From a virus, in IMG/VR virus record IMGVR_UViG_3300020595_000074, positions 1-40,262 of that record: a stretch of DNA of 40,262 nt, one strand, 5' to 3'. The notes under the pieces were generated by a model. That model did not search any database. It was not told where the DNA came from and worked only from the letters and a program-made list of their open reading frames with translations. Position 1 is the stretch's first letter; the number at the start of each line of letters is the position of its first letter. Of the stretch, positions 1 through 39,788 are shown one piece after another. The position numbers and the translations under genes were made by a program.

Positions 1-484
1 CCCTCTGGATCTTATCCATTAGTTTTTCCTCGAGCTCTTTCATAGCGCCACTTTGTGAAACCCTAACACGTTCACGTTGATTTTCAAAGCGAACTTCTGC
101 GTTATCTATCATAGTACGAACCTTGTCCTCTGATTCACGTACCATATCTTCTACACGATCCGTTTGCTTTTCAATGCTAAGAATGTCAGAACGTAATCCA
201 TTTTTGATGTCCCGGCTGTATTCTACAGACTCTTCAACCTTTTCAGATATGCCCGTTACCTTCGCATCCATCACATCCATTGCTTGTTGGTATTCCCCTA
301 AGTCAAGTCCTGCAACTTCCTCGATCTTTTGGTACATGACGAAACCACCGTACAAGCCACCTACGACCGTAGACAAAAACGCCAGTATAGCCATGATTGA
401 ACCAAACGACATCTTCATGCCACCAGTCTTAAACTCACGATCTGCAAGTCCATCAATGTTATTTGCTATCTTGGTAGTATCCAT
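1..484 (-). CDS. Membrane-anchored coiled-coil protein, partial (C-terminus off left edge)
   Basis: The first 161 residues are visible and the frame is still open at position 1, so this is a 5' fragment. A hydrophilic N-terminus of about 25 residues is followed by one hydrophobic segment (around residues 26-48) and then a long charged heptad-like region rich in E, K, V and R that looks like a coiled coil. The topology fits an inner-membrane anchor with a long helical domain, and N-in with a periplasmic coiled coil is possible. The ATG overlaps the stop of the upstream gene as TAATG, so it belongs to the same transcript as the exported-protein cluster. An i-spanin-like lysis role or a virion helical protein are both conceivable; I do not recognise the family. 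Confidence 0.75.
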   Translation of the reverse strand, partial: MDTTKIANNIDGLADREFKTGGMKMSFGSIMAILAFLSTVVGGLYGGFVMYQKIEEVAGLDLGEYQQAMDVMDAKVTGISEKVEESVEYSRDIKNGLRSDILSIEKQTDRVEDMVRESEDKVRTMIDNAEVRFENQRERVRVSQSGAMKELEEKLMDKIQR

Positions 485-882
485 TAGTTTTCAAACTCCA
501 TCTCTCCACCGGCGTTCTGTAGGTTCTTTAGTGCTTCTAGCTCATCGCGTAGTTTTTGTATCTCTAACCTACGTTGCGCTAGCTCTATTTGATAAAGGTC
601 GTCACAGTTAATACGAGCCTTGGGCTTGTCTAATGGAATAACTATCCTTGCGTATACACCTATGTCTTTGCCACGACTGCTAGTATCTAAACCTGATAGC
701 ACACCTGTTACGCCATACTCTAAGTTTACGCCTCCACCGACAGCGTTACTGCACCGTGTACTACCCGTTGAAAACGAATCCGATTGGTAGTTCATTGGCG
801 GGCTTGGCAAAGCAAGCGAAAGAGAGCTGTTGTCGGCCACAACAGAACTTGATAAAACACAAAAAGCTAACGCTAATCTCAT
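484..882 (-). CDS. Exported protein with C-terminal helix, unknown function
   Basis: 132 aa from an ATG that overlaps the previous stop as ATGA; a longer reading from 909 is possible but would put charged residues ahead of the signal peptide. The N-terminus MRLALAFCVLSSSVVA reads as a Sec signal peptide with cleavage after VVA. The mature part has a Ser/Pro-rich start, a Gly-rich beta-like middle (EYGVTGVLSG, DIGVYARIVIPL), two cysteines that could form a disulfide, and a C-terminal charged helix (about residues 95-125) likely to form a coiled coil. It resembles hypothetical proteins I recall next to portal genes in marine phage contigs. Function is unknown; export to the periplasm is the only supported statement. 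Confidence 0.72.
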   Translation of the reverse strand: MRLALAFCVLSSSVVADNSSLSLALPSPPMNYQSDSFSTGSTRCSNAVGGGVNLEYGVTGVLSGLDTSSRGKDIGVYARIVIPLDKPKARINCDDLYQIELAQRRLEIQKLRDELEALKNLQNAGGEMEFEN

Positions 883-1268
883 GCAGGTTCTCCGTCTAGC
901 CTTGAGCATATTGTAGAAGAAACAAGTGTCCTGGATATATTAGTTTTCCTGACCTTTGAGGTTGTACATAGAAAGACTGCTTCGGGTAAATCTCTCTTCC
1001 TTATGTAGACATCAAAAGCTTTATGTTCTTTATAATCAACCTTCATAATTCTATACGGCGTAGAAAAAGGTATAGGCATCCAGTTTAAATCAAATAAATC
1101 GACCTGATAGTAATTTATTTCTTCCCTAGAGTTAAACAAAGACATTTCTACTTTAACTACGTTTTTGACGTGGGACATCTTTACTTCTGGATAAGCAGGC
1201 GTCATTTCGTGCGCGAACGCACTAGAAGCAGCTAACATACCTATTATGAGTAACTTACTTAGCGACAC
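879..1268 (-). CDS. Exported Ig-like, periplasmic-chaperone-like protein
   Basis: 129 aa if translation begins at the GTG at 1268, which places a standard signal peptide (KLLIIGMLAASSAFA) at the N-terminus; this GTG lies 13 nt inside the preceding gene. The open frame extends to 1334, but that extra part is antisense-like and not needed. The mature sequence has alternating beta-strand character with phrases such as VKVEMSLFNSREEINYYQV, FDLNWMPIPF and AFDVYIRKRDL. These resemble the first immunoglobulin-like domain of pilus chaperones (PapD type), but without the second domain. Two or three cysteines lie near the C-terminus. It follows a pilin-like exported protein, so a subunit-chaperone relation is plausible. 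The family assignment is inference from pattern, not a database hit. Confidence 0.6.
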   Translation of the reverse strand: MSLSKLLIIGMLAASSAFAHEMTPAYPEVKMSHVKNVVKVEMSLFNSREEINYYQVDLFDLNWMPIPFSTPYRIMKVDYKEHKAFDVYIRKRDLPEAVFLCTTSKVRKTNISRTLVSSTICSRLDGEPA

Positions 1269-1743
1269 AACTGGCCTGCACAACCGCAGTGTAGTTGCCT
1301 CCGGGAAACGGTTTAGCTGAACCGTACACAGCACTAGAAGCAGTAGAGAACCATGTTGACCCCGCGAGCGTAAGATTAAATATCGAAGTGTTATCTACGA
1401 CTACTTTAGCATCGTTATAAGCGGACATTCCTGACACAGACGTTTGTGTGACCGTCGTACTACCTGTCCACGCTAATGTGTCTGTTAATGTAGGGGAAGA
1501 ACTAAACGATGTTGGATGCGTTATGTTAGCTGTGTAGGAATCCGCAATGGATACATCGTATCTAATTACTGGCAATACGCCCCCGTCAGAAGGAGTAGTG
1601 CTTAACTTACTAGCAATCGGGTTTCCGTATACACCGCTTTTAGTTGTTTGGATAACACATTTGGCTTCTACACTCCCTGTAATATTTACAGTTGCGAAAG
1701 CTGGTAGTGCAACGAGTGAAAGTGTTGCTATTAGATACTTCAT
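1255..1743 (-). CDS. Exported pilin-like beta protein
   Basis: 162 aa. The ATG at 1743 is chosen because GAGG lies 6 nt upstream; the ATG at 1755 overlaps the previous stop (ATGA) and would add four residues. The signal peptide is MKYLIATLSLVALPAFA. The mature protein is small, Thr/Ser/Val/Ala-rich and beta-predicted, with one cysteine near the start (EAKC) and one at the end (QASC), the spacing expected for a disulfide that closes an Ig-like subunit. It has no charged C-terminal tail. This composition resembles fimbrial major subunits and some exported adhesins. It sits directly upstream of the chaperone-like gene. An exported structural subunit is the best guess; a surface-exposed receptor-masking protein is an alternative. 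Confidence 0.62.
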   Translation of the reverse strand: MKYLIATLSLVALPAFATVNITGSVEAKCVIQTTKSGVYGNPIASKLSTTPSDGGVLPVIRYDVSIADSYTANITHPTSFSSSPTLTDTLAWTGSTTVTQTSVSGMSAYNDAKVVVDNTSIFNLTLAGSTWFSTASSAVYGSAKPFPGGNYTAVVQASCVAK

Positions 1744-1751
1744 ATTAAACC

Positions 1752-2624
1752 TCATTTGTTATACTGCATATCGACCATCTTTTCATGCAGAATCTGTTGT
1801 GCCAAATTATTGCGAAGGGCTTTCTTGTTATCAGGTATCTCTGAATCAGCAAGACCAGGGGCATCAGCATACGAACCACCGTTAATAGATGCATTGTAAT
1901 ACATATTAAGATTAGTTTGTTGATTGATAGCCATAATAATCTGATCTTGTCCTTGCGTTTTAAATAGGGTCAACGCATTGGCAGATGCCGTCAGCCCCAT
2001 TTCAATCCTAGTTTCTTCTTCCTCTTCCTCCTCAGAAAGTATTAACTCTCCGTCTTCATCATACTGAAAGTCTGTGTCGGCGTCTATAGCGTCTACAACA
2101 GCGTCATCTTCCAGTGCATCATAGACTTCAATCACAGGAAGAACAGGCATGGGCTTTACATATCCTGGGCAGTTAGGATTGGACTGCGGTTCAAAGCACT
2201 CGTCGATCCTATAGTTATATATAACCACAGCATCTTTGACCGTACCTTTCCCTTCAATGTCAATTGAACCGTCACCCCATTTGGTAGCCGGAATGTTAGA
2301 AAGGGGAAAGGATTTAACAATTGTGTTTCCGGGAACTCCCGACCAGTCGTCGGTTTCTCGAAAGATATAGCCGTCTCCGCTAGCGTTCTTATTTCCAACG
2401 TGGACTTTCATGTCGTCTTCTGGGTTCTTGACCGTGGTGTATCTGTATAAAAGACCGTTTATATCTATACCTGGGATATCAGGCAGGACGGAACTCATCC
2501 CCCAGCTTAATGCTGTGGATGCGGCGTTCCCTGTTGCCCCATAGCTATAGGGATCACAAGAAGAGTAAGAAGGCCAAAGTGCTAATAATAACACTAAGAC
2601 CTGTTTTTGTTTCAACGTTTTCAT
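1752..2624 (-). CDS. Exported protein with acidic central region, unknown function
   Basis: 290 aa. The N-terminus MKTLKQKQVLVLLLALWP followed by SYSSC is a signal peptide. A lipoprotein reading is possible because a cysteine follows the hydrophobic core, but the lipobox is not canonical. The middle contains two nearby cysteines (DECFEP, NPNCPG) and a strongly acidic stretch with a run of seven glutamates around residue 200. The C-terminal third is helical and Gln/Asn-rich. The first 71 nt overlap the end of the upstream gene in another frame, and its stop overlaps the following gene as ATGA. No known fold is recognised. It is the largest member of the exported cluster and could be its scaffold or surface component. 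Confidence 0.7.
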   Translation of the reverse strand: MKTLKQKQVLVLLLALWPSYSSCDPYSYGATGNAASTALSWGMSSVLPDIPGIDINGLLYRYTTVKNPEDDMKVHVGNKNASGDGYIFRETDDWSGVPGNTIVKSFPLSNIPATKWGDGSIDIEGKGTVKDAVVIYNYRIDECFEPQSNPNCPGYVKPMPVLPVIEVYDALEDDAVVDAIDADTDFQYDEDGELILSEEEEEEETRIEMGLTASANALTLFKTQGQDQIIMAINQQTNLNMYYNASINGGSYADAPGLADSEIPDNKKALRNNLAQQILHEKMVDMQYNK

Positions 2625-3108
2625 TGAACATCTTTCTCATTGGATTGTTCTGATCTCTTTGTATTTCTTCTTTGACCGCTTCCATTTCCCATGCCAGTCT
2701 AGCTTTATCGCCTACCAACCCATCCTTGGGGCAGGGCGTCCCCGCGTTAAGCATGGCTTCAAACACTCTTTCGTCCTGACACATGACTGATACAGCAGCA
2801 ACTTTCATGCCCATATCGTACATAGTCTTGGCGTTCTTGAGCTTCTCACAGTTCATATCTCGTACAGTTCTACCCGCTGAAATACCAAGAATTTGTGTCT
2901 GCACCGCCCCCGCGACACCTACAGTACATAGGTCAGAGTTGCTTGCGCTAATCTGCGGAGAAATCGCAGAAGGCGGTGGACTGTTGATGGTAGTGTCCAT
3001 CGAACCATCAGAAGTAATCGTACTGTTTGTGTCAGTTCTGATTGTATCGTCGGCGGATACAACCCCGCCGATCATAATTAGTATCGCAGCTAAAAGACCG
3101 CGGGTCAT
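2554..3108 (-). CDS. Exported protein with C-terminal membrane anchor
   Basis: 184 aa. A clear signal peptide (MTRGLLAAILIMIGGVVSA) precedes a Ser/Thr/Pro-rich linker, then a helical domain with four cysteines (DLCTVG, DMNCEK, VMCQDE, TPCPKD) that could form two disulfides, a charged helix (EMEAVKEEIQRDQ) and a hydrophobic C-terminus (LSVIISTLAFLLFL) able to anchor it in the membrane. The phrase CTVGVAGAVQTQILGIS is one I recall as recurrent in marine phage genes beside portals. The ATG overlaps the portal stop by 4 nt, so it is co-translated with late virion genes. The role is unknown: envelope transit at DNA entry, superinfection exclusion or release are open options. Confidence 0.72.
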   Translation of the reverse strand: MTRGLLAAILIMIGGVVSADDTIRTDTNSTITSDGSMDTTINSPPPSAISPQISASNSDLCTVGVAGAVQTQILGISAGRTVRDMNCEKLKNAKTMYDMGMKVAAVSVMCQDERVFEAMLNAGTPCPKDGLVGDKARLAWEMEAVKEEIQRDQNNPMRKMFNENVETKTGLSVIISTLAFLLFL

Positions 3109-5630
3109 CTTCTTTCCATAGCCTGACGTTGCACGTCAATGCGCTCCCTGTTTACTTCGCTTCTCTCGTCAGCGATCTGTTCTTGGAGTTCTAATCTAGC
3201 GGAGTCAGTAGTAGCCTGCTGTTCTAGCTTCATCTGGTCAAGCTGTAGTTTAGCTTGCTCCATCTGTGCTTTCTGCGAAGCTTCCATCTCCTTGATTGCT
3301 AGCTCCTGCATACGGATAGTTACGAGCGGATCCTGCTCTGCGCCGCCCTCACCTTTGTATGTTAGTAGAGGCATAACCTCTTGTAGCAATTGTGATTCAA
3401 CCTGTGAAACTCGAGCTTCCACCTGATCTGGTGGCATTTGAGACTGTTGCATCTGCTGTTGCAGTTGAGCAATCTGCGACTGCGCCATCTCAGGAAGCAA
3501 TGCTCCTGCTTGAACTAGGTTTGTAATCTGAGCAATCTGTTGTTGTAGCTCTTGCATCTGCGCTTGTTGCATCTGCTGCATCTCCATTTGAACCATAACT
3601 CTGGCTTTCATACTGATGTGTTGGAACACATGACTGAAGATTGCCGCCAGAACTGCCGGTGTTTGTTGTAGTATATCAAGCTCGAGCATAGCCAAGTGAC
3701 TCTGAATATGCGCGTCGTGGTCCTGTTGAGGGAACGCTTGTGGTGTTTTACCACCAATCATAGCCGCATTCTCCGTAGCAGGGTCTTGAGGCATAGGCTC
3801 TGGAGCCGGTGGTAGGATCTCGTCGATATTCTGCACCTCTAATGCTTGATACATTCTTCTGTAAGCGGCATGCAGATTATGCATCTGCGGGTTAGACTGC
3901 GCCAGTTGGAGCTGTGTTTGCGCGAGTGTAACACGTTGCGACATGGAGAAGATGTTTGGGTCTGAGACTGGGAGGACGTCTACCCGAGCATCAAAGTCTT
4001 CTACTTTAACTTGCGCCTGTGCGCCCGCTACTTCGTAGGGGTACATAGGAGGGAGGTTTTCAGAGAAGATACGCGCCAGTAAACGAAACTCTGTTTTCTG
4101 AGCGTAGTGCAATCGTTTGTGAATCGCGGACATAACCTTCATCCCGCGTTCCAACATAGCTACTGTAGTCCCAACAGGAGTCTCCTGACCCATGTCCGAG
4201 ATCTGTTGATCGGCTAATGCAATGAACCGACGTCCGTCATTCACCAGTCCACCTAGTAATTGTGCAAGTGTACCTGATGGTTCCTTATATGGCAGAGGTA
4301 CAATAGCGTCTCTAATGCTTCCTCCTGGGGCGTCAATGTCTCTCCACTCTCCAGGCTGTAATGGCTCATCTGCGTTGCGTACACGCACTCCACGGGCTTT
4401 AAAACCGGCAGGGAGGTTAGCGAGTGTTCCTGCATCGATAAGCTGACGTAGGAGGCTCGTTGCCGCTCTGCCTAAACCACCAATCATGTGGATTAAACCA
4501 AAGCCGTAGAACCCAAGACCAGGCATGAACTTGTAGTGTACGAAGTACTGGCGTTTACGCTTGAAGATATCTTCCATCTCGTAGTTACGACGGATAGCTA
4601 GGATCGAACCAGACGAATCGTCTAGTGTAACGATGTATGGGAGCTTAATACCTGTAGGCTCTTGAGTCTCTGGATCCATGTCCTCGAACCCTTCGAGGTC
4701 TAAATCAACGTGCATTTCCAAGATATTAAGCACATCGTCGCTGTAATTCTTAGATAATCCCTCTAATTCGTTTACCTTCTGGCGGACTTGATCCTCTTCA
4801 ACATCCTCAGATGCAGACAGATCAACGTCACGATACATTCCTGCGTACTGCATTTTCACAACATCGTTGAGATCCATGCGTAAAACGTGGGTTACACGGC
4901 TAGCTGTTGCTAAATCAGATGCAGCGTATGAAACAACAAGGTCTTGTGCCGGAATAAACTTGGCTATAGCGCGTTGTTTCGTTGGATCGAAGTAAACTTT
5001 CTTAAATGTAGAACCTGATAGCGGCAAATAAAACAGCATCTGATCCATATCTGGATCGTACTCTTCCATGATCTCTGTAATCTGGTAGTTCATGAAATCT
5101 TTTACACGTCTAGCCTGCTCTTCGCGCTGACGGTCTTTAAGTCCCAGGACCGCGGTGCGTACTGGTCCGCCCGATGGCAGCAGTTCCTTGTAAGCCTGTG
5201 CTTGGAACTGGGTTACGCTTTCACTAATCATAGGATGCGTAATGCCAGAGGCTCCTTCAAACGGAGTAGAGCGATCTTCCGTCTTGATCCCCAATAGGTC
5301 TAGGCCGTTGGTGTATGCGTCTTCCCATTCAGAACGAGAGGACAAATCATCTTGGTACATGCTGCGAAGATCAGAGGACAATTCGCCCAGAACCCCGTCA
5401 TCTAGGAACTCTGAGAGGTTCGCGTCAAACGGAATAAGATCCTCTTGGCTCAGTCCTTCTAATCCGTTGAAGTCTATAGGCTGAACAGTTGCTCCGCCCA
5501 TCCCGTCTTCTATAATCTCGGCACCCCCTGGAAACTCCATCGGTGCGTCTACTGATACTTCTAGTTCGGGAAGTCCCGCTGTGTCGTCGAGGTCAAGACC
5601 TGATGCGACCATGTTAGGTGGTGTTGCCAT
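3105..5630 (-). CDS. Portal (head-tail connector) protein
   Basis: 841 aa, placed directly after TerL with a one-base TAATG overlap, the usual place for the portal. The N-terminal 130 residues are acidic. The core then contains portal-like phrases: a SRSEWEDAYTNGLDLLGI helix, TPFEGASGITHPMISESV and LPLSGSTFKKVYFDP, followed by DNVK/wing-type beta segments and a stem region near ATSLLRQLIDAG. The last 200 residues are Gln/Met-rich coiled coil (repeated QMQQ and QLQQ) ending in charged helices, which may form a long barrel. It is longer than typical portals of 500-750 aa, and the excess lies in that tail. The family call rests on context plus sequence style. Confidence 0.85.
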   Translation of the reverse strand: MATPPNMVASGLDLDDTAGLPELEVSVDAPMEFPGGAEIIEDGMGGATVQPIDFNGLEGLSQEDLIPFDANLSEFLDDGVLGELSSDLRSMYQDDLSSRSEWEDAYTNGLDLLGIKTEDRSTPFEGASGITHPMISESVTQFQAQAYKELLPSGGPVRTAVLGLKDRQREEQARRVKDFMNYQITEIMEEYDPDMDQMLFYLPLSGSTFKKVYFDPTKQRAIAKFIPAQDLVVSYAASDLATASRVTHVLRMDLNDVVKMQYAGMYRDVDLSASEDVEEDQVRQKVNELEGLSKNYSDDVLNILEMHVDLDLEGFEDMDPETQEPTGIKLPYIVTLDDSSGSILAIRRNYEMEDIFKRKRQYFVHYKFMPGLGFYGFGLIHMIGGLGRAATSLLRQLIDAGTLANLPAGFKARGVRVRNADEPLQPGEWRDIDAPGGSIRDAIVPLPYKEPSGTLAQLLGGLVNDGRRFIALADQQISDMGQETPVGTTVAMLERGMKVMSAIHKRLHYAQKTEFRLLARIFSENLPPMYPYEVAGAQAQVKVEDFDARVDVLPVSDPNIFSMSQRVTLAQTQLQLAQSNPQMHNLHAAYRRMYQALEVQNIDEILPPAPEPMPQDPATENAAMIGGKTPQAFPQQDHDAHIQSHLAMLELDILQQTPAVLAAIFSHVFQHISMKARVMVQMEMQQMQQAQMQELQQQIAQITNLVQAGALLPEMAQSQIAQLQQQMQQSQMPPDQVEARVSQVESQLLQEVMPLLTYKGEGGAEQDPLVTIRMQELAIKEMEASQKAQMEQAKLQLDQMKLEQQATTDSARLELQEQIADERSEVNRERIDVQRQAMERR

Positions 5631-7096
5631 TAATAATACTCCCGTTTACGGGGCCTCCATTCATCGTCTTCTGTGTCTTCTCCGTGAAGAGAGATAAATC
5701 CACCTCGACGGAAACGCATAAGTGCTAGTGTCATACTATCACAATAATCGTCGTTGTCACCATTAGGAAACGAAACAACTTCTTCAATCACTTCGTCTGC
5801 AAATTTCTTGTCGTCTGGTGCCCATACCATTCCCGCTTCAAATAGCGGTGCAACCATGTGCATCCTGGTCACCTTATCACTTCCTTTGCCTGGTGAGAAC
5901 CCCAATGCGGGTATTCCGCGCAATCTAAGTTCGTCAATGAGCGGTGTACCTGTCGCTTTCGCCTCTACCAACACCATATCAGGCTCCCAATACTCGTGTT
6001 CTTCGAAGGCAACCTCCTTGAGTTCGGGGAAATTCCACCGGCCACGCTGTGCATCTAGCAGAATTATGTTGTCTGCGCCGCCTTCTTCCGGTTTGAAGAT
6101 GCCCCACGTTGTAATCGCAGAGTAATCCGCTGTTTCCTTCTTGGAAAACGCTGTATCGTAGGACTGTAGGATGTAATCGATCCTAGGAATCTTCTCTTCT
6201 TCCCACGGATTCCACCATTCGCGCTTAATTATCGCCGATTCGGAGCCTGTGGGGTTCTGTTGCCACTGCGCGTTCCATTTGCCCACGGGCAGAGACGCTT
6301 TGATGGACAATAAGGCGTTCTTTTCCCAGAATTCTGGCCATAACGGCTTGTCACTAGGCAATATAGCAGGAAATTCCACAACTTCCCACTTGTCAGACAT
6401 GACATCACTGCCCTGTTGCGCCAATAATCTACCCGTTAAGTCCTTTTTACCCCATCGGGTCATAACAATTATGATTGCGCCCCCTGGTTGGAGCCGTTGT
6501 CGCGGTCCAGAGGTGTACCATTCGTAGGCATGGTCGAATGCAGTGGAGCTTAACGCATCTTGTTCCGAATGCGGGTCATCAATGACGAGTAAATCCGCAC
6601 CACGACCCGTGATGGCAGCGCCAACACCCGCCGCAAAGTACTCAGCACCCTTGTCCGTGCCCCACGTACCCGCTCCTTTGTTGTCTTCTTTAAGGTTTGT
6701 ATCCGGAAATATAGTCTTGTACTCAGGGTCATCGATCAAATCCCTCACTTTACGACCAAAACGTACCGCCAACTCAGTGTTGTGCGTCGCTTGGATGATT
6801 TTTAATTTAGGGTTTCTACCTAGAAACCAAGCAGGCATCAAGTAGCTTGCAAACTCAGACTTAGAATGCCGCGGAGGCATGTTAATAATCAATCGCTTGA
6901 GCTCTCCTCGTGCAACACGTTCAAGTTTTTCAGCGATGATACGGTGATGTTGCCCTTCAATGAAGTTATCGTACACATGATGGACGAAAGGCATGAAGTT
7001 GTCATGTGCTTGTTCGCGCAAATCTATGCGCTTCTTGGCCTCTGTTAAAGCCAAGATCTCTTTTAATGCTTCCTCTGGGAGGGCTTGTAAGTTCAT
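5630..7096 (-). CDS. terL: Terminase large subunit (packaging ATPase/nuclease)
   Basis: 488 aa. The N-terminal ATPase has a Walker A-like PRHSKS at residues 75-80 and a Walker B VIDDP near 171-175, followed by the coupling motif region (IIIVMTRWGKKDLTGRL). The C-terminal RNase H-like nuclease is marked by SYDTAFSKKETADYS, VEAKATGTPL and the late acidic motif DDYCDSMTLAL. Together they pump DNA into the prohead and cut the concatemer. Unusually, the small subunit is not adjacent but about 6 kb away in a separate minus-strand unit. The gene overlaps the upstream 500-aa gene by 4 nt (ATGA) and shares one base with the portal start. Confidence 0.95.
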   Translation of the reverse strand: MNLQALPEEALKEILALTEAKKRIDLREQAHDNFMPFVHHVYDNFIEGQHHRIIAEKLERVARGELKRLIINMPPRHSKSEFASYLMPAWFLGRNPKLKIIQATHNTELAVRFGRKVRDLIDDPEYKTIFPDTNLKEDNKGAGTWGTDKGAEYFAAGVGAAITGRGADLLVIDDPHSEQDALSSTAFDHAYEWYTSGPRQRLQPGGAIIIVMTRWGKKDLTGRLLAQQGSDVMSDKWEVVEFPAILPSDKPLWPEFWEKNALLSIKASLPVGKWNAQWQQNPTGSESAIIKREWWNPWEEEKIPRIDYILQSYDTAFSKKETADYSAITTWGIFKPEEGGADNIILLDAQRGRWNFPELKEVAFEEHEYWEPDMVLVEAKATGTPLIDELRLRGIPALGFSPGKGSDKVTRMHMVAPLFEAGMVWAPDDKKFADEVIEEVVSFPNGDNDDYCDSMTLALMRFRRGGFISLHGEDTEDDEWRPRKREYY

Positions 7097-8595
7097 GAGC
7101 GCCTAAGTGATGCTAATCCTACCGGTGTTTGTGCTGCAACAGTAATCGGTTGTGCTGTGGGTGTAGGTACTACGAAAGCAGGTTGTTGCCCAGGGACAAG
7201 TGACGGCAATGTAACCGGAGATACACTCGTGTAAGGCGACAATGCAGGGGCTGTATATGTTCCGCCGCCCGTGGTCGGTGCTTCTGGGAACGGTTGTTGG
7301 AACGGATCGAGGACACAGGCGTTTTCTTCGCTGTCAAATATGTATCCTTCTGGGCATGTAGGTTCTTCTGCCCCACCGTCTTCTCCGTCTTCTGCCCCTG
7401 CCCTTTGTCGGTCGTTGTTATCCGAACCATCTAACCGAGAGGGATCTCCCATTTCATAGACTCTAGTGTAGTCTTTCGCTTTTTCCGCATCAACCGTCTC
7501 GTCAAACACTTGAGCCGTATCACTGTGCTCACCCGTGTAATTGATGATATTCCCTGCCGCATCTACACCCAACGCTCCGATAACCTGTCCGTTATCAAAC
7601 ACAGGGACTTGTCGTTCCCCATCTCCGTAGTTTGTAAATACACTGGCCAAGAACCCTGGTTCATACTGACCGGTCAACTTCTCATAGGCACGACGCTGAT
7701 TCATATCCCCTAAGTAATCTAATCCTTGCCCCAATGGTGAAGCCTCAAACATTTTCCCAAGTCCACTGTCCCCAAACCGAGGTTGGTCTAATCTTGCTCC
7801 TAGGTCTTTAACAGCTTGCTCATATTGTTCTTTGCTCATGTTGCCTTTGTTGAGCATATCCACGGCGCGATCTGTCAAATTAGAATCCGTCGCCGTACTC
7901 TGGCCATACGGATCAATAGCTGCCGCAATGTTCTGACGCATCATACGTTCTTGGAAATCTACTTCGTCTTGCAAGTTCCTTGGACTACCAGGCATATTTG
8001 CAGTAGGGTCGTTTTTGAACTGTTCAGCAAACTTATACAAATCTACTTTAGCGTTCGGATCTAACCCTGACGTTATGCCGGCCTTCTTAACAGGGGAAGA
8101 GCCCGCAACCTTAGTCGTTGTGCCAGAACCAAAGCTGAGTGGCGATGTTGCAGAAACTGCCGCAGGTTCTGTGCCAAAAGTTAAGTTTGATGGAACCACG
8201 GGACTAGCTTTTGGAGGAGCCGTAATGTTAAGCTGGCTTTCTCTTCTGCGTAAAACGTCCTCGCCTTCACCTCCAAGATCCTTAGACACCAACTGAATAT
8301 TCTCTAACCGATCAAAAATATCTCTGTTATCATCTTCCGCTGCTCTTGTAGCCGGAGATACAACAGGTGCAGGTCTTGGGGCAGACATCACTGCCGCCGC
8401 TCCTTTGCGATCACTTCTATCTCTAGATGTATTAACTACCGGTGCAGGTGCAGGCTTGGGTGCAGATAAAACAGCCTGGGCTCCTTTGCGATCGGCTCTC
8501 GATCCACCGCCCCCAGATGATGATCCGCCGCCGCCACCAGAATCCCCGCCAAAAGCTATCTGAGGTTTTAAAAATGAAAATAATACGTTATACAT
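7093..8595 (-). CDS. Low-complexity virion-associated protein (500 aa), unknown function
   Basis: The sequence is mostly disordered-looking: a Gly/Ser-rich N-terminus, two copies of a DRKGAxAV(L/M)SAP(K/R)PAP repeat (residues about 35-50 and 62-77), helical middle segments, a small beta region (PVFDNGQVIGALGVDAAGNI), an acidic linker, and a Pro/Thr/Val-rich C-terminus. A short Cys pair CPEGYIFDSEENAC resembles a mini EGF-like loop seen in other marine phage proteins of this position. The ATG is preceded by AGGA at a good distance. It lies between the acyltransferase-like gene and TerL in the late operon, so a virion or assembly role is likely, but no enzymatic motif is visible. Confidence 0.7.
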   Translation of the reverse strand: MYNVLFSFLKPQIAFGGDSGGGGGSSSGGGGSRADRKGAQAVLSAPKPAPAPVVNTSRDRSDRKGAAAVMSAPRPAPVVSPATRAAEDDNRDIFDRLENIQLVSKDLGGEGEDVLRRRESQLNITAPPKASPVVPSNLTFGTEPAAVSATSPLSFGSGTTTKVAGSSPVKKAGITSGLDPNAKVDLYKFAEQFKNDPTANMPGSPRNLQDEVDFQERMMRQNIAAAIDPYGQSTATDSNLTDRAVDMLNKGNMSKEQYEQAVKDLGARLDQPRFGDSGLGKMFEASPLGQGLDYLGDMNQRRAYEKLTGQYEPGFLASVFTNYGDGERQVPVFDNGQVIGALGVDAAGNIINYTGEHSDTAQVFDETVDAEKAKDYTRVYEMGDPSRLDGSDNNDRQRAGAEDGEDGGAEEPTCPEGYIFDSEENACVLDPFQQPFPEAPTTGGGTYTAPALSPYTSVSPVTLPSLVPGQQPAFVVPTPTAQPITVAAQTPVGLASLRRS

Positions 8596-8598
8596 GTC

Positions 8599-9006
8599 CT
8601 AGCCACCTTTGTTCGGGTAAACACCGCTCCGTTGGCCACGATGCGACCAAACCTTTTTAACTTCCGGGAACTCCGAGACAAACATCCTACGAAGATCCCT
8701 ACAAAATCCTAATACACCAGAAGTGCCCTCGGGTGCAATCATATCAACAAAAACTAATTTGTCACCTGTTTCTCGACGAAAAATTTCAGGACCCCAATAA
8801 TCCCGCGTCTCAAACTCCTCATTCGTCATCCACGCCCAGGTCACAAACCCTGCACACGAACCACCCTCGTTATGCCAGATCTTATACTGACCACTCTCAA
8901 TCGCAGGCGATAAACGCCAAGCAATCGTACTCGAAGGAAAAGTCGAATAAGGGAGAACCGTGGTCCAAAGATCAACGCAATCGATGAAATCTGCTTGCTT
9001 CGTCAT
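8599..9006 (-). CDS. HlyC/RTX-type lysine acyltransferase-like protein
   Basis: 135 aa from the ATG at 9006; the frame stays open to 9102, but that part is AT-rich and adds an odd hydrophobic stretch. The core AIESGQYKIWHNEGG, GFVTWAWM and GDKLVFVDMIAPEG aligns by eye with toxin-activating acyltransferases (HlyC: AIRANQY, YCSWANL, KWFIDWIAPFG). In that family the enzyme transfers a fatty acyl group from acyl-ACP to lysines of an RTX protoxin. The family Asp matches D88. The catalytic His (HlyC H23) aligns without gaps to Y20, so activity or mechanism may differ. No RTX-type substrate is visible in the window. It is the first gene of the packaging operon, so a virion or lysis protein could be the substrate. 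Confidence 0.72.
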   Translation of the reverse strand: MTKQADFIDCVDLWTTVLPYSTFPSSTIAWRLSPAIESGQYKIWHNEGGSCAGFVTWAWMTNEEFETRDYWGPEIFRRETGDKLVFVDMIAPEGTSGVLGFCRDLRRMFVSEFPEVKKVWSHRGQRSGVYPNKGG

Positions 9007-9136
9007 AACAACCCCAAATGAAATTACATACAACATACTATAAACCCAAATGAAAATATAGTGGGCATTTTTTGGGCGGTCCTCGGTTCTTGGACATGGC
9101 AATGAAATTATCTGCGAATGAATTTACGAAACCAAT

Positions 9137-17318: not shown

Positions 17319-18122
17319 GTGAACCCGTACATTCTCCCTGACAATAATGTATTGATATCATTCAGCGGTGGTCGTACCAGTGGCTATATGTTACATCAAA
17401 TACTAGAAGCAAACGGGGGTTTGCCTGACACAACCAAGATTGTGTTCACAAACACTGGCAGAGAAGACGACGCTACACTCGATTTTGTTCGAGACTGTAG
17501 CGTTCGTTGGAACTGCGCCATTGACTGGCTTGAGTATAGAAGAGTTGATGGCAAAGTAGCATTCGAAAAAGTAAATCACAACAGTGCGAGTAGAAAGGGA
17601 GAACCTTTTGAGGCAGTATTGTCTAGCTCTGGGATTTTGCCTAACGTTTTTCGTCGTTACTGCACTCAAGAATTAAAAGTGAGAACCATAAAAAGATATC
17701 TTGTGTCCCTTGGATGGAAGAGATGGATAAACACTGTAGGCATCCGAGCGGATGAAGTACATAGGGTTAAGATTTCTAAAGAAAAAAGATGGACGAACTG
17801 GTACCCGTTGCACGAGGCTCAAGCTACGAAGAGCACTGTGATGGATTTTTGGAAGCAACAACCTTTTGATCTCCAAGTAAAACCTGGTTCGGGAAACTGT
17901 GTCGGATGTTTCTTGAAAAGTGAAGCGACGTTAGCATCGTTATGGAGGGAGAACCCCGAACATATGCAATGGTGGTCTGACCAGGAGAAGTTGAAGGAGG
18001 CCACGTTCCATCAGAAAAGAAGTTACGCTGAATTAGGATCGTTTGTTGATAGACAGGCTGATTGGATTTTTGAGGACGTGGATTACTTGTGCCAAGTAGA
18101 CGATGGAGAATGCACTGGATAA
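17319..18122 (+). CDS. PAPS-reductase-like PP-loop enzyme
   Basis: 267 aa from a GTG 3 nt after the previous stop. The N-terminus carries the PP-loop SGGRTS (residues 16-21) within VLISFSGGRTSGYML, then IVFTNTGREDDATLDF, both typical of the PAPS reductase/adenine nucleotide alpha-hydrolase family. Later motifs are YCTQELKVR (C115), GIRADEVHR and the pair NCVGC (C194, C197), with C258 and C265 near the end, so a metal or iron-sulfur site is possible. Phage members of this family are widespread and their substrate is unresolved; sulfur transfer to nucleic acid or assimilation of sulfate are options. It lacks the C-terminal ECGLH motif of true CysH enzymes. Confidence 0.8.
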   Translation: MNPYILPDNNVLISFSGGRTSGYMLHQILEANGGLPDTTKIVFTNTGREDDATLDFVRDCSVRWNCAIDWLEYRRVDGKVAFEKVNHNSASRKGEPFEAVLSSSGILPNVFRRYCTQELKVRTIKRYLVSLGWKRWINTVGIRADEVHRVKISKEKRWTNWYPLHEAQATKSTVMDFWKQQPFDLQVKPGSGNCVGCFLKSEATLASLWRENPEHMQWWSDQEKLKEATFHQKRSYAELGSFVDRQADWIFEDVDYLCQVDDGECTG

Positions 18123-25108: not shown

Positions 25109-27015
25109 GTACATTGTTTGGTAGCGATCTGCATCATCAGATTAAGAATGAGATGGATATGATTGACTCTGACTGGAACATTCCACCAGAGTTCCCTGAT
25201 CTAACGGGTTATAGCGAAGTCGCTGTAGATTTAGAAACCAAAGACCCCAACATTAAAACCCTAGGCCCAGGATGGGCGCGAAAAGATGGGCACATCATAG
25301 GCATTGCTGTGGCTGCCGGTGAATACAAAGGCTATTTCCCTATCAGACATGAGAACGGACACAACCTGGACCCTAAGTTTGCACTGAAGTGGTTGAAGAA
25401 ACAGATGTCTGTACCTGAGATGAAGGTGATTATGCACAACGCAACTTACGATGCGGGTTGGATGAGAGCCGAGGGCGTCGAGATCAAAGGTCGTATCATT
25501 GACACCATGATTACAGGCGCGTTGGTTGATGAGAACCGTTGGTCGTTTGGCCTAGACGCTATGGCTAGAGACTATGCGGGTATCCGTAAAGACGAGAAGA
25601 TGTTGAAGGCCGCCGCCAAAGCATGGGGCATCGATCCCAAAGCAGAGATGTGGCAGTTACCTCCGGCGTATGTGGGAGCGTATGCCGAGCGAGATGCTGT
25701 AGCCACGCTAAAACTCTGGCAGTTCCTAAAGGTTAAGCTAGAAGAAGAACAGCTATGGGAAATCTGGAACATAGAAACTGATCTGATCCCCTGTATGCTA
25801 GACATGCGAAGCAATGGTGTGCGTGTTGACCTCGACAAAGCAAGCAAGAACAAGAAGTTAATACGTGGCAAAGTAAAGGAACTACGCCGAGGGATTGAGA
25901 AGCAAGCAGGCGGAGACGTAGACATATGGGCGTCAGCGTCCATAGCTAAGATGTTTGATAAGTTGGGACTAGAGTACCCAAGAACAGACAAGGGCGCTCC
26001 CTCGTTCAACAAGGGCTATCTCAGTAGCCATCCATCCAAGGTGTGCCAGGACTTAGTTAAACTCCGTGAGTTTGATAAGGCAGACAGTACGTTTATTGAC
26101 AGTATACTACGTCACGAAACTGATGGGCGTATCCATACGGAGCTACACTCTACTCGTCGAGACGAGGGGGGCACAGTCACGGGGCGATTTTCTTCGAGCA
26201 ACCCAAACCTACAGCAGATTCCTGCCAGAGATAAGGACATCAAGAAACTGATCCGTGGTTTGTTTATCCCAGAAGATGGATATAAGTGGGGATCGTTCGA
26301 TTATTCTAGCCAAGAACCAAGATTGTTGGTACACTTCGCCGCCAGTGTTGGGGACATGCCAAGGCAGGATCTACTCGAGGACATCGTAGAGCAATACAAT
26401 ACTTCAGACGTAGACCTACACCAGATGGTTGCAGACTTAGCAGGCATCACTCGTAAAGAAGCAAAGGCCGTGAACCTTGGGATCATGTACGGCATGGGCG
26501 TTGCCAAGCTAGCCAATCAGATTGACGTTGATCCAGACACAGCCAAGGAACTATTGCAACAGCACCGAGACAAGGTTCCGTTTGTTAAAGCGTTGGCTGA
26601 GATGGCGTCTAGAAGAGCGGCAAGCAATGGTCAGATCCGTACCTTACTAGGACGTAAGTGTAGGTTTCATCTTTGGGAACCTCAGACATTTGGTGCAGGC
26701 AAACCTTTACCCCATGATGAGGCGTTGAAGGAATACGGCGGCGTCAACGGCACGGGTATCCGTAGAGCATTTACATATAAAGCATTGAACAGATTGATCC
26801 AAGGATCGGCGGCCGATCAAACAAAGAAAGCTATGCTTGATTGTTATAGGAAGGGATTTACTCCTATGCTTACAGTACACGACGAGCTTTGTTTTAATAT
26901 AGAAAGCCCCGAGCAGACCGCTCAGATCAAAGAGATCATGGAGACAGGGGTTAATTTAAAGGTTCCGTCTAAGATAGACGTAGATATTCAAGATGACTGG
27001 GGAGAAATAGAATGA
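25105..27015 (+). CDS. Family A DNA polymerase with 3'-5' exonuclease
   Basis: 636 aa. The exonuclease has VDLETK (D42, E44), HNATYD (N112, D116) and YAERDAVATLKLW. The polymerase has motif A DYSSQEPR (D399), motif B RKEAKAVNLGIMYG and motif C VHDEL (D593). No 5'-3' exonuclease domain is present, as in T7-type replicative enzymes. The residue equivalent to E. coli Phe762 is Leu458, within KAVNLG. It copies the phage genome, supplied by the primase and SSB encoded just upstream. ATGA overlap with the methyltransferase gene follows. Confidence 0.95.
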   Translation: MSTLFGSDLHHQIKNEMDMIDSDWNIPPEFPDLTGYSEVAVDLETKDPNIKTLGPGWARKDGHIIGIAVAAGEYKGYFPIRHENGHNLDPKFALKWLKKQMSVPEMKVIMHNATYDAGWMRAEGVEIKGRIIDTMITGALVDENRWSFGLDAMARDYAGIRKDEKMLKAAAKAWGIDPKAEMWQLPPAYVGAYAERDAVATLKLWQFLKVKLEEEQLWEIWNIETDLIPCMLDMRSNGVRVDLDKASKNKKLIRGKVKELRRGIEKQAGGDVDIWASASIAKMFDKLGLEYPRTDKGAPSFNKGYLSSHPSKVCQDLVKLREFDKADSTFIDSILRHETDGRIHTELHSTRRDEGGTVTGRFSSSNPNLQQIPARDKDIKKLIRGLFIPEDGYKWGSFDYSSQEPRLLVHFAASVGDMPRQDLLEDIVEQYNTSDVDLHQMVADLAGITRKEAKAVNLGIMYGMGVAKLANQIDVDPDTAKELLQQHRDKVPFVKALAEMASRRAASNGQIRTLLGRKCRFHLWEPQTFGAGKPLPHDEALKEYGGVNGTGIRRAFTYKALNRLIQGSAADQTKKAMLDCYRKGFTPMLTVHDELCFNIESPEQTAQIKEIMETGVNLKVPSKIDVDIQDDWGEIE

Positions 27016-28319
27016 AGTATGGATCAGTATGCTCGGGCATCGAGGCGGCGACTGCCGCTTGGCACCCACTGGGTTGGGAGCCACAATGGTTCAGTGAGGT
27101 TGACCCTTTTCCAAGTGCCGTGTTGCAACATCACTACCCACACATACCAAATCATGGAGACATGACCAAATTTAAGGAATGGAATAATGACAGAACAATT
27201 GAGCTTCTTGTTGGCGGGACACCATGTCAGTCCTTCAGCATCGCCGGACTTAGAAAAGGACTCTCGGACCCGAGGGGAAACCTCATGCTTACATATCTTG
27301 CAATGGCTGAACAATTTAAGCCCAAGTGGCTTGTCTGGGAAAATGTCCCCGGTGTCTTGTCCTCCAACGGAGGAAGGGATTTTGGTACCTTCCTCGGGGC
27401 GTTGGGGAAAATCGGGTACGGGTTCTCCTACAGAGTGCTGGACGCACAATTCTTCGGAATTCCACAGCGACGCCGACGTGTGTTCGTTGTCGGATGTTTT
27501 GGAGACTGGAGAAGTGCCGCAAGTGTTTTACTTGAGCCCGAAAGCATGTCGGGGAATCCTCCTCCGAGCAGAGAGGCGGGGCAAAGAGTTGCCCCAACAG
27601 TTACAGTCGGCCCTCCTTTTAGTCGCACAGGAAACTCCAGAGTAGAGACGGATGCTCTTGTCACATACGCAATGCCTGGAAATTGGATAGGTCGTAAGCC
27701 TGAGAACGGAGGCAACCAAGTAGAACCCTTTGTTGATCTGTCTCCTTGTCAAACGGCTACCGATGTCCACGCTGTTGTTACACCACGGAAAACAGGTTCG
27801 CACTGGGACGGTGATTTTCCGCACCCAACACTAACTCAGTCGGCTAAAGGGTCTGGCGGTATTGGTGCAAGCAATCAAGAAATATTTGGGGGGCGAGGTG
27901 CGGGTTTAGTGCCCGCTAGAATGAGAGGCTTCGGTGATTACATACAAGACGAAACAGCAAGCACGGTCAAAGCGCGTGATTATAAAGACGCTACAGATCT
28001 AGTCGCCGCTTCGAAAGCTACAGGTGAAACAACTCTGTCTGATGTGACGATGTCTCTTACTGCAAGCTATGGGCAGGGAGGCGCGGACTTAGCAACCAAG
28101 CCAATGGTCTGTTCCAGTACGGTCAGGCGGCTTACTCCTAAAGAATGTGAGAGATTACAGGGTTTCCCTGATGACTTTAGTAGGATACCATGGAGGAATA
28201 AAGAGCCAGAGGATTGCCCTAATGGCCATAGGTACAAGGCGTTAGGCAATAGTATGGCAGTTCCTGTCATGAATTGGATAGGGCGACGTATCGATATGGT
28301 CGAAAAAGGAGAACTATAA
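27012..28319 (+). CDS. C5-cytosine DNA methyltransferase
   Basis: 435 aa with the whole motif series: I GSVCSGIEAATAAW, IV GGTPCQSFSIAG (nucleophile C72), VI WENVPG (110-114), VIII FGIPQRRRRVFVVG, a long target-recognition region (about 180-365), IX RRLTPKECERLQGFPDDF and X YKALGNSMAVPVM. The phrase ETASTVKARDYKDATDLV is common in phage Dcm-type enzymes. It would methylate cytosine in phage DNA to resist host restriction. No matching endonuclease is visible. It shares its last base with the next ATG. Confidence 0.95.
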   Translation: MKYGSVCSGIEAATAAWHPLGWEPQWFSEVDPFPSAVLQHHYPHIPNHGDMTKFKEWNNDRTIELLVGGTPCQSFSIAGLRKGLSDPRGNLMLTYLAMAEQFKPKWLVWENVPGVLSSNGGRDFGTFLGALGKIGYGFSYRVLDAQFFGIPQRRRRVFVVGCFGDWRSAASVLLEPESMSGNPPPSREAGQRVAPTVTVGPPFSRTGNSRVETDALVTYAMPGNWIGRKPENGGNQVEPFVDLSPCQTATDVHAVVTPRKTGSHWDGDFPHPTLTQSAKGSGGIGASNQEIFGGRGAGLVPARMRGFGDYIQDETASTVKARDYKDATDLVAASKATGETTLSDVTMSLTASYGQGGADLATKPMVCSSTVRRLTPKECERLQGFPDDFSRIPWRNKEPEDCPNGHRYKALGNSMAVPVMNWIGRRIDMVEKGEL

Positions 28320-38402: not shown

Positions 38403-39788
38403 TTAAGCCTCCAATGCTTCTACCCTAGTCTTTAGGGATGCTATTTCTGTTAATGCTTCTTGTAGTGCGGCTGTAAGTAATGGCACTAGTTTGCTTTGGT
38501 CTATGCCTTGGTAATCAGGGACAGATTGTGTACCCATGACAGCGGCTGTAGTCTCACGCCATTGCTGTCCATCCTCTAATGTTTCTGGCTGTTCAGCATC
38601 TGCGCTGTGTATAACTTCATCTACTGCATCAACATCATTACCATCACCATCAACGTAAGCCTCTGTAGCTGGAGTATAGATGTCACCTGTAGCTGGAGTT
38701 ACTTCGTACTCTTCGTCCATCATTGCATCTTTAGCGCCAGTGATTGCTTCTGGTACTACTGTTGCAACTTCGTGAGCTAAGAAGCCATCTACGAGTGTAT
38801 TAGTTTCATCAGCTATAAAGTTAAATCGTTTTACATCTAGTTGATTAACTCTTGCAGATGCACCTGTTAGGTCTACTACGTTTTCTTTTAGTCTGTAGTC
38901 TGAAGATGTGTTGTAGGATGTAGCTGAACCCGACCATGTTATAGTACCAACTGCCGTATTGTCCACCCTACGAAAAACGAGGCCATAACCCCCATCGTTG
39001 CCATTCCTAAAGGTAGCACAATGATGTCCATTTCTACCAGATATCTGTAGTTTACCAGCGTTAGCTGTCTCTGTAGTTTGACCCACCAACAAGTTACCTG
39101 ACGAGTCGATGCGTAAATTTTCACTTGAGCCATTACCATTAGTAATCGTAAAAGTACCTGTGCTAGAGGTATTTCTAAATTCTATATTCCCACCAGATGA
39201 AGGGGCGAAAGTAATAGGTACATTAGCACTTGCTCCAGTACCAACATGGAGGATAGACAACGGGTTACTGTCACCAATACCAACGTTGCCTGAGTCTAGC
39301 ACATACATTTTATCAACGCCGCCAGAAGCAAGCCGCAACATACCATTAGCATTTGCATTTATTCTTGCGCCAGTAGTACCAGATGTTATAGGCGTAAAGT
39401 TTCCATAATTAACGCCTGTTGTTATTCCAGTAGAGCCTGTCACTGTGCCAGTTACGTCAACGCCTGTTGATGTTGTGGCTAGTTTTTGTGAGCCTGCGTA
39501 ATAAAACTCATTTGCGCCGCTTGTTATAAACTTGGCTTTAACTGAACTGCCGAATTGATCTCTAATGACTAGGTTTGTGTTACCATCAATAAACAAGTCA
39601 CCAGTACCAGTATCTTGAATATAACTATTACCCCCATCATGGTAAATCTGTAAGTCATCACCAGCACCGAATATGGCTTTACCATTATCTGCGAAGGTAG
39701 CGTTTCCGGTGACCGTGATCCCCGTTGCACTGGTCGTTAGCTTCTCTGAAGTGCCATTATAGAGTGCGTCAATTGTTGAAACTGCCAT
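38403..39788 (-). CDS. Tail fibre with S74 intramolecular chaperone domain
   Basis: 461 aa. The N-terminal 290 residues are beta-helix-type repeats (LQIYHDGGNSYIQDTGTGDLFI, KLATTSTGVDVTGTVTG, SGNVGIGDSNP). The C-terminus holds SSDYRLKENV (catalytic Ser296 and Lys301 of the self-cleaving S74 type), then FLAHEVATVVPEAITG and the closing coiled coil EALTEIASLKTRVEALEA. The chaperone trimerises the fibre and is released by autocleavage. This is the likely receptor-binding protein. A GC-balanced unit ends 4 nt before the nozzle gene. Confidence 0.92.
   Translation of the reverse strand: MAVSTIDALYNGTSEKLTTSATGITVTGNATFADNGKAIFGAGDDLQIYHDGGNSYIQDTGTGDLFIDGNTNLVIRDQFGSSVKAKFITSGANEFYYAGSQKLATTSTGVDVTGTVTGSTGITTGVNYGNFTPITSGTTGARINANANGMLRLASGGVDKMYVLDSGNVGIGDSNPLSILHVGTGASANVPITFAPSSGGNIEFRNTSSTGTFTITNGNGSSENLRIDSSGNLLVGQTTETANAGKLQISGRNGHHCATFRNGNDGGYGLVFRRVDNTAVGTITWSGSATSYNTSSDYRLKENVVDLTGASARVNQLDVKRFNFIADETNTLVDGFLAHEVATVVPEAITGAKDAMMDEEYEVTPATGDIYTPATEAYVDGDGNDVDAVDEVIHSADAEQPETLEDGQQWRETTAAVMGTQSVPDYQGIDQSKLVPLLTAALQEALTEIASLKTRVEALEA

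Follow-up and report, generated by a model that had tools for sequence, protein, structure and literature searches.

What does a virus gain from a row of late genes whose products all seem destined to leave the cytoplasm? The question is raised by the IMG/VR virus record IMGVR_UViG_3300020595_000074, of which we analysed positions 1 to 40,262 (the window, a viral contig of 40.3-kb with its late genes on the minus strand). A first-pass annotation, made from the letters alone, had singled out five consecutive genes next to the portal gene, each starting with a signal peptide, followed by a gene for a membrane/coiled-coil protein. It had proposed that they build something in or on the host envelope. 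We find this interpretation partly supported. The six genes, hereafter the block, constitute a late envelope module that is exported, linked to lysis genes and endowed with a pilin-like subunit and a chaperone, a conclusion that is well supported by the comparative data given below.

Organisation of the block

The minus-strand genes come in the order terminase, portal, P0005, P0004, P0003, P0002, P0001 and CC. The portal gene and the block are laid out as follows.

3105..5630, minus strand: portal protein (phrog_1216, E 6.6e-45), the upstream neighbour in the window, outside the block
2554..3108, minus strand: P0005 ('A'), 184 residues; predicted signal peptide, four conserved cysteines, C-terminal hydrophobic tail overlapping P0004
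1752..2624, minus strand: P0004 ('B'), 290 residues; predicted signal peptide, beta-rich N-terminal part, Glu-rich linker, C-terminal ...DMQY
1255..1743, minus strand: P0003, 162 residues; predicted signal peptide, unstructured N-terminal strand, then a predicted pilin-like beta-sandwich; C29 and C159 invariant
879..1268, minus strand: P0002, 129 residues, GTG start; predicted signal peptide, single predicted PapD-like chaperone domain; C101 and C121 invariant
484..882, minus strand: P0001, 132 residues; predicted signal peptide, C-terminal helix; C44 and C93 invariant
2..484, minus strand: CC ('C'), predicted N-in single transmembrane segment and periplasmic coiled coil; truncated where the window ends

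All five open reading frames (ORFs) with signal peptides were found at the starts first described (3108, 2624, 1743, 1268 with GTG, and 882), and CC indeed follows them. In relatives CC is 169 residues long, with an N-terminal transmembrane segment, a coiled coil and the ending ...NPLAD. P0005 belongs to the family phrog_20531, and P0001 always lies beside P0002 and P0003. The genes of P0005 and P0004 overlap out of frame, by 71 nt in 58 of 66 loci and by 74 nt in seven; the other gene-to-gene spacings, typical over loci, are +8, -11, -4 and -1 nt. These short spacings and the 71-nt overlap point to one coupled operon, and ribosome-binding-like sequences precede several of its starts. Scans of the five products with Pfam, NCBIfam and PADLOC matched nothing meaningful, comparison of block products with PDB sequence profiles gave chance-level matches only, and tblastn searches of the phage collection with P0002, P0003 and P0004 returned zero matches.

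Export signals and selection

Signal peptides were predicted with a simple rule based on the n-, h- and c-regions, which scores all five products high. Predicted cleavage falls between MTRGLLAAILIMIGGVVSA and DD in P0005, between ...LWPSYSSC and DPYSYG in P0004, between MKYLIATLSLVALPAFA and TVN in P0003, between (V)SLSKLLIIGMLAASSAFA and HEM in P0002, and between MRLALAFCVLSSSVVA and DNS in P0001. The other positives in the window were the transmembrane segment of CC and ORFs that are antisense or mostly weaker. Similarly, in a near-complete relative (G005, 55.7-kb, 81 ORFs) the rule picked the block, the transmembrane segment of CC and a few weak candidates. The non-exported neighbours in relatives, i.e., the portal, the holin, the lysin and the EF-hand gene, fail the rule.

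Homologues bear out the proposed Sec export to the host envelope. The rule is kept in 222 of 232 of them (around 95%; 46/47, 47/52, 48/50, 39/41 and 42/42 in the five families). The first 20 residues show less similarity than the rest in four families (0.45-0.69 vs 0.74-0.90). For example, they score 0.48 in P0005, whose mature part scores 0.90; P0004 is the exception, with about equal values (0.73 vs 0.78). Hence, the signal rule is kept while the sequence diverges, the pattern expected if selection acts on export and not on sequence. The conserved cysteines of the mature parts are even in number (four in P0005, two in each of P0004, P0003, P0002 and P0001), as expected in the oxidising periplasm. 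All six genes have a median ratio of non-synonymous to synonymous substitution rates (dN/dS) of 0.06-0.11, i.e., they are under strong purifying selection. On these sequence patterns, predicted export of the block products to the envelope is well supported. We considered P0004 and P0001 as lipoproteins and rejected this, because the cysteines near their cleavage sites vary among homologues.

Genomic neighbourhood

We scanned IMG/VR with P0005 and obtained 552 relatives, from which 80 loci were kept; they are mostly metagenomic contigs from one broad clade, so the counts overstate independence. Synteny across marine phage contigs, a check suggested with the original observation, proved strong. 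The six-gene order is the same in the great majority of the 80 loci, save those cut at contig ends, CC adjoins P0001 in all 138 distinct alleles, and the link to holin and endolysin genes is near constant. After CC, the relatives encode a protein with an EF-hand and two transmembrane segments, a holin (GTA_holin_3TM, PF11351, E 7.9e-24) and an endolysin (GH19-like or GH108). All 110 loci of the first set that extend 2 kb or more beyond CC have both holin and endolysin. Once deduplicated and with diverged groups added, 79 of the 84 distinct alleles that continue for 3 kb or more downstream encode both within 3 kb after CC.

The gene upstream of the block varies. Among 127 loci it encodes a portal in 32, a tail fibre in nine and something else in 86, and in the near-complete relative the block lies between a 1660-residue tail fibre and the lysis genes. 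The adjacency to the portal that first drew attention to these genes is thus real in the window but not general, and we rejected portal linkage as a clue to function. The endolysin behind the block is GH19-like in 63 loci and GH108 in 47, two unrelated types. Since the linkage persists with two endolysin types and with differing upstream genes, the block and the lysis cassette travel together.

Two further observations concern the cassette itself. The endolysin type switches between otherwise related phages behind the same block (L019 and L033 vs L003). The protein with an EF-hand and two transmembrane segments (L019:9144-9464, L089:3870-4226) lies before the holin in most relatives and is found again in roseophage CRP-207; it is possibly a calcium-sensing partner of lysis.

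Predicted folds of P0002 and P0003

Structure prediction connected P0002 to fimbrial chaperones and, more weakly, P0003 to pilins. The AlphaFold2 model of P0002 is one seven-strand domain with a core predicted local distance difference test score (pLDDT) of 82-86. Its best Foldseek matches were the fimbrial chaperones FaeE, DraB, Caf1M and FimC (E 1.5e-4 to 1e-3, probability 1.00, template-modelling (TM) score about 0.5), followed by MSP domains of the same superfamily. At 129 residues, it is a single domain and lacks the second Ig-like domain of these chaperones.

The model of P0003 has a mean pLDDT of 88.7, about 95 in the sandwich and low before C29, where the residues A17, I21, G23, V25 and A27 are conserved in an alternating pattern. 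Its best Foldseek matches were the PapG pilin domain, FimF, CfaB and CsuA/B, interspersed with bacterial adhesin domains (probability 0.93-1.00); because their E values are 3e-3 and above, this likeness is suggestive only. Among viral models there was one match below 1e-3, to an uncharacterised phage protein. Profile comparisons were cross-specific, if weak in absolute value: P0002 matched PapD_N at E 6.5e-4 and SCPU at 0.39, whereas P0003 matched SCPU at 0.004 and PapD_N at 0.62. The models make a one-domain PapD-type fimbrial chaperone fold well supported for P0002, and suggest that P0003 is similar to chaperone-usher pilins.

Two sub-modules and their distribution

We compared pairwise distances over 46 distinct haplotypes using partial correlations. 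They separate P0005, P0004 and CC from P0003, P0002 and P0001, with partial correlations of 0.52 for P0005-P0004, 0.56 for P0005-CC, 0.45 for P0003-P0002 and 0.69 for P0002-P0001. The correlation between P0005 and CC goes beyond physical linkage alone, because their genes sit at opposite ends of the block. The split is imperfect, with cross-group values of 0.40 for P0002-CC and 0.34 for P0001-P0004. Near-identical genomes (L014) show identities of 98% for P0005, 75% for P0003, 73% for P0002 and 99% for CC.

Each set also occurs elsewhere. The set P0005-P0004-CC, with a coiled-coil protein that ends in 'NPL', is shared by pelagiphages, roseophages and a T4-like phage. Relatives of P0005 were found in the pelagiphages HTVC115P, 202P, 033P and 023P, in Baldr, in the T4-like Mosig, in the roseophages CRP-207 and CRP-810, and in others. 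In the nine such records that we examined, the P0005 relative is followed by a further gene, mostly large and with a signal peptide, and then by a transmembrane/coiled-coil protein ending in '...NPL(x)'. The annotated start of the second gene of HTVC115P (gp53, L084:7455-7578) misses the signal peptide; an in-frame upstream start provides both a signal peptide and an overlap with gp54, as in the window.

Some public labels of these relatives did not hold. Pfam does not support the 'OmpA family' label of a CRP-810 relative, and we doubt the 'lysozyme' labels of CRP-810 gp51 and CRP-207 gp73, which both resemble coiled-coil CC homologues. The sequences of the module members so labelled (L087 gp51 and gp53, L089 gp73) do not back the labels and resemble CC and P0005 relatives.

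In the T5-like Vibrio phages pVp-1 and Brizo the trio P0003-P0002-P0001 keeps this order and precedes the genes for a small lipoprotein, a holin (phrog_860) and an M15 endolysin. In pVp-1 the trio corresponds to genes 0077-0079 (phrog_25895, phrog_25455 and phrog_37374). P0003 matched phrog_25895 (1.3e-7) and P0001 matched phrog_37374, the family of pVp-1_0079 (3.3e-9). P0002 aligns end to end with pVp-1_0078 (P 0.003), a match of low probability alone that is backed by gene order. The trio also occurs, as an operon with a second P0003-like gene, among housekeeping genes in the chromosome of Fulvimarina pelagi (L327:4057-5854), and in one more of the 385 alphaproteobacterial genomes sampled. 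By gene order and co-variation, P0005-P0004-CC and P0003-P0002-P0001 are two co-evolving sub-modules.

Comparison with known systems

The block resembles chaperone-usher fimbriae (archaic Csu/SCPU; PapD_N PF00345, SCPU PF05229) in its adjoining genes for pilin-like and PapD-like products, in the disordered N-terminal strand of P0003 with alternating conserved residues before the first cysteine, and in the weak cross-specific profile matches. It differs from them by its one-domain chaperone, the lack of an usher, the extra P0001 and the setting in a phage lysis operon. We found no usher by inspection of the ORFs of the window or of G005, nor a match to the usher profile PF00577 in the Fulvimarina genome (the E. 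coli control was positive).

Spanins (Rz/Rz1, u-spanins) share with the block the company of holin and endolysin. Moreover, CC has the i-spanin layout, an N-terminal transmembrane segment and a periplasmic coiled coil (by inspection, with predicted orientation), and P0005 and P0004 are exported genes that overlap out of frame. Unlike spanins, the block has no lipobox and five exported proteins instead of one, and we found no sequence similarity to known spanins. No convincing lipoprotein (lipobox) gene was found in the window or in the lysis flanks, and in G005 there were only two implausible matches. P0005 is not a recognisable u-spanin: its cleavage site is of the signal peptidase I type, its C terminus is a hydrophobic tail and it lacks a lipobox.

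The curli (type VIII secretion system, T8SS) of pelagiphages and Melnitz are also Sec-exported multi-gene blocks in marine phages. Curli clusters are known in marine phages, with suggested roles in aggregation (PMC7029224, PMC9599517) and, for Melnitz, in lysis timing (PMC9004378). The first-pass annotation had noted that no member of the block resembles CsgG. Pfam and NCBIfam scans agree, and no product matched CsgG, curli-repeat or other curli proteins in Pfam, PHROG or NCBIfam. As the block has no CsgG, CsgF or CsgA homologue, and has other folds and another gene order, we rejected the curli reading. The uncharacterised pVp-1 genes 0077-0079 are also among the closest known counterparts; they differ from the block in having no P0005, P0004 or CC and in being followed by the small lipoprotein gene.

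By membership, the block is neither a chaperone-usher system, nor a spanin pair, nor curli; in its working it is at most like a mixture of the first two. Our searches of the open-access literature turned up no account of the block, of a phage lysis operon with a pilin-chaperone pair, or of an usher-less one-domain PapD-like chaperone.

Possible functions of the block

Four roles had been proposed for the exported genes: an exported filament, a superinfection barrier, receptor masking and a release device. The filament gained ground from the predicted folds of P0002 (chaperone-like) and P0003 (pilin-like), and the release device from the link to holin and endolysin. We tentatively favour a late periplasmic or outer-membrane device that uses an usher-less pilin-chaperone pair and helps to open the outer membrane at lysis. 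P0002 would hold P0003 in the periplasm through donor-strand complementation. Once released, P0003 would use its free N-terminal strand to polymerise or dock, P0001 serving as acceptor or anchor, and P0005, P0004 and CC would connect the inner membrane with the layers outside it. Made just before lysis, the assembly would breach or weaken the outer membrane, substituting for lipoprotein spanins.

That the breach is the block's job we infer, and rank first, because no convincing lipoprotein gene was found in the window, the lysis flanks or the near-complete relative, CC is laid out like an i-spanin, and substitutes for spanins have been suggested: in a published survey about 13% of phage genomes, many of them marine, had no recognisable spanin, and type I inner-membrane and outer-membrane proteins were named as possible replacements (PMC6139136). 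In its most specific form, strand-linked polymers, or a complex spanning the envelope by way of the inner-membrane coiled-coil bridge, would rupture the outer membrane and so replace spanins in abundant marine phages; put this exactly, the proposal is unlikely.

Several points weigh against a role in opening the outer membrane. Location in an operon is no proof of function: the lambda genes lom and bor encode outer-membrane proteins and lie close to the lambda lysis genes. Five of the 84 distinct alleles lack the nearby holin and endolysin pair, and the diverged contigs L217, L227 and L254 have a structural or other gene after CC in place of lysis genes. P0003 resembles pilins only weakly (E at least 3e-3, TM score about 0.5 at most). 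Without an usher there is no known route across the outer membrane. Fulvimarina carries the trio in its chromosome, amid housekeeping genes. Finally, the trio need not replace spanins, because in the Vibrio phages it is accompanied by a small lipoprotein that may be an o-spanin.

A surface coat or receptor mask ranks second: displayed on infected cells or on cell debris, P0003 and its partners would prevent superinfection or keep progeny from being lost to receptors. The lipoprotein Llp of phage T5 acts in this way. We consider such a coat somewhat unlikely. In its favour, P0003 and P0002 vary more than most products between near-identical genomes (75% and 73%); against it, all six genes are under purifying selection. 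The pilin and chaperone folds suit surface structures, yet the block has neither an usher nor another known outer-membrane exporter. The trio is present in T5-like Vibrio phages and the block lies near tail genes in many relatives; nearness to lysis genes, in turn, proves nothing. Still, the tight tie is to holin and endolysin and not to receptor-binding genes.

An extracellular fibre for adhesion between cells or between cells and phages ('sibling capture') is rather improbable. The fold class does form fibres, and the pelagiphage curli clusters with their suggested aggregation roles (PMC7029224, PMC9599517) offer a parallel, but the block lacks a CsgG, CsgF or usher-like pore, and its position in the lysis operon would leave a fibre little time to act. 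It is very improbable that the products are virion or injection components that merely look exported (e.g., virion cargo that reaches the periplasm when the phage enters), as the position among late genes, the portal beside the block in the window and the tail genes beside it in relatives might suggest, given the five cleavable-type signal peptides with mostly fast sequence turnover, the even cysteine numbers, and the trio in a bacterial chromosome and in unrelated T5-like phages. The lysis-linked device for opening the outer membrane stays our preferred, if tentative, reading.

Other genes of the window

Other genes assigned in the window are the following.

8599-9057, minus strand: HlyC-family gene (RTX toxin acyltransferase, PF02794, E 2.5e-10)
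7093-8595: Gly-rich late protein, adjoining the HlyC-family gene
38403-39788, minus strand: tail protein with a Peptidase_S74 chaperone domain
27012-28319, plus strand: C-5 cytosine methyltransferase
17319-18122, plus strand: PAPS-reductase-like protein

A HlyC-family gene is also present in pelagiphage HTVC115P (gp46, E 1e-15).

Significance

The results suggest an undescribed device built in the outer envelope of the host at the end of infection. The block is a conserved candidate, with defined genes, for the means by which phages without a recognisable spanin (PMC6139136) breach the outer membrane. It would define a minimal fimbria-like system common to phages and some marine bacteria. Since the family is abundant in marine viral contigs, its function bears on the release of bacterial carbon by phages at sea.

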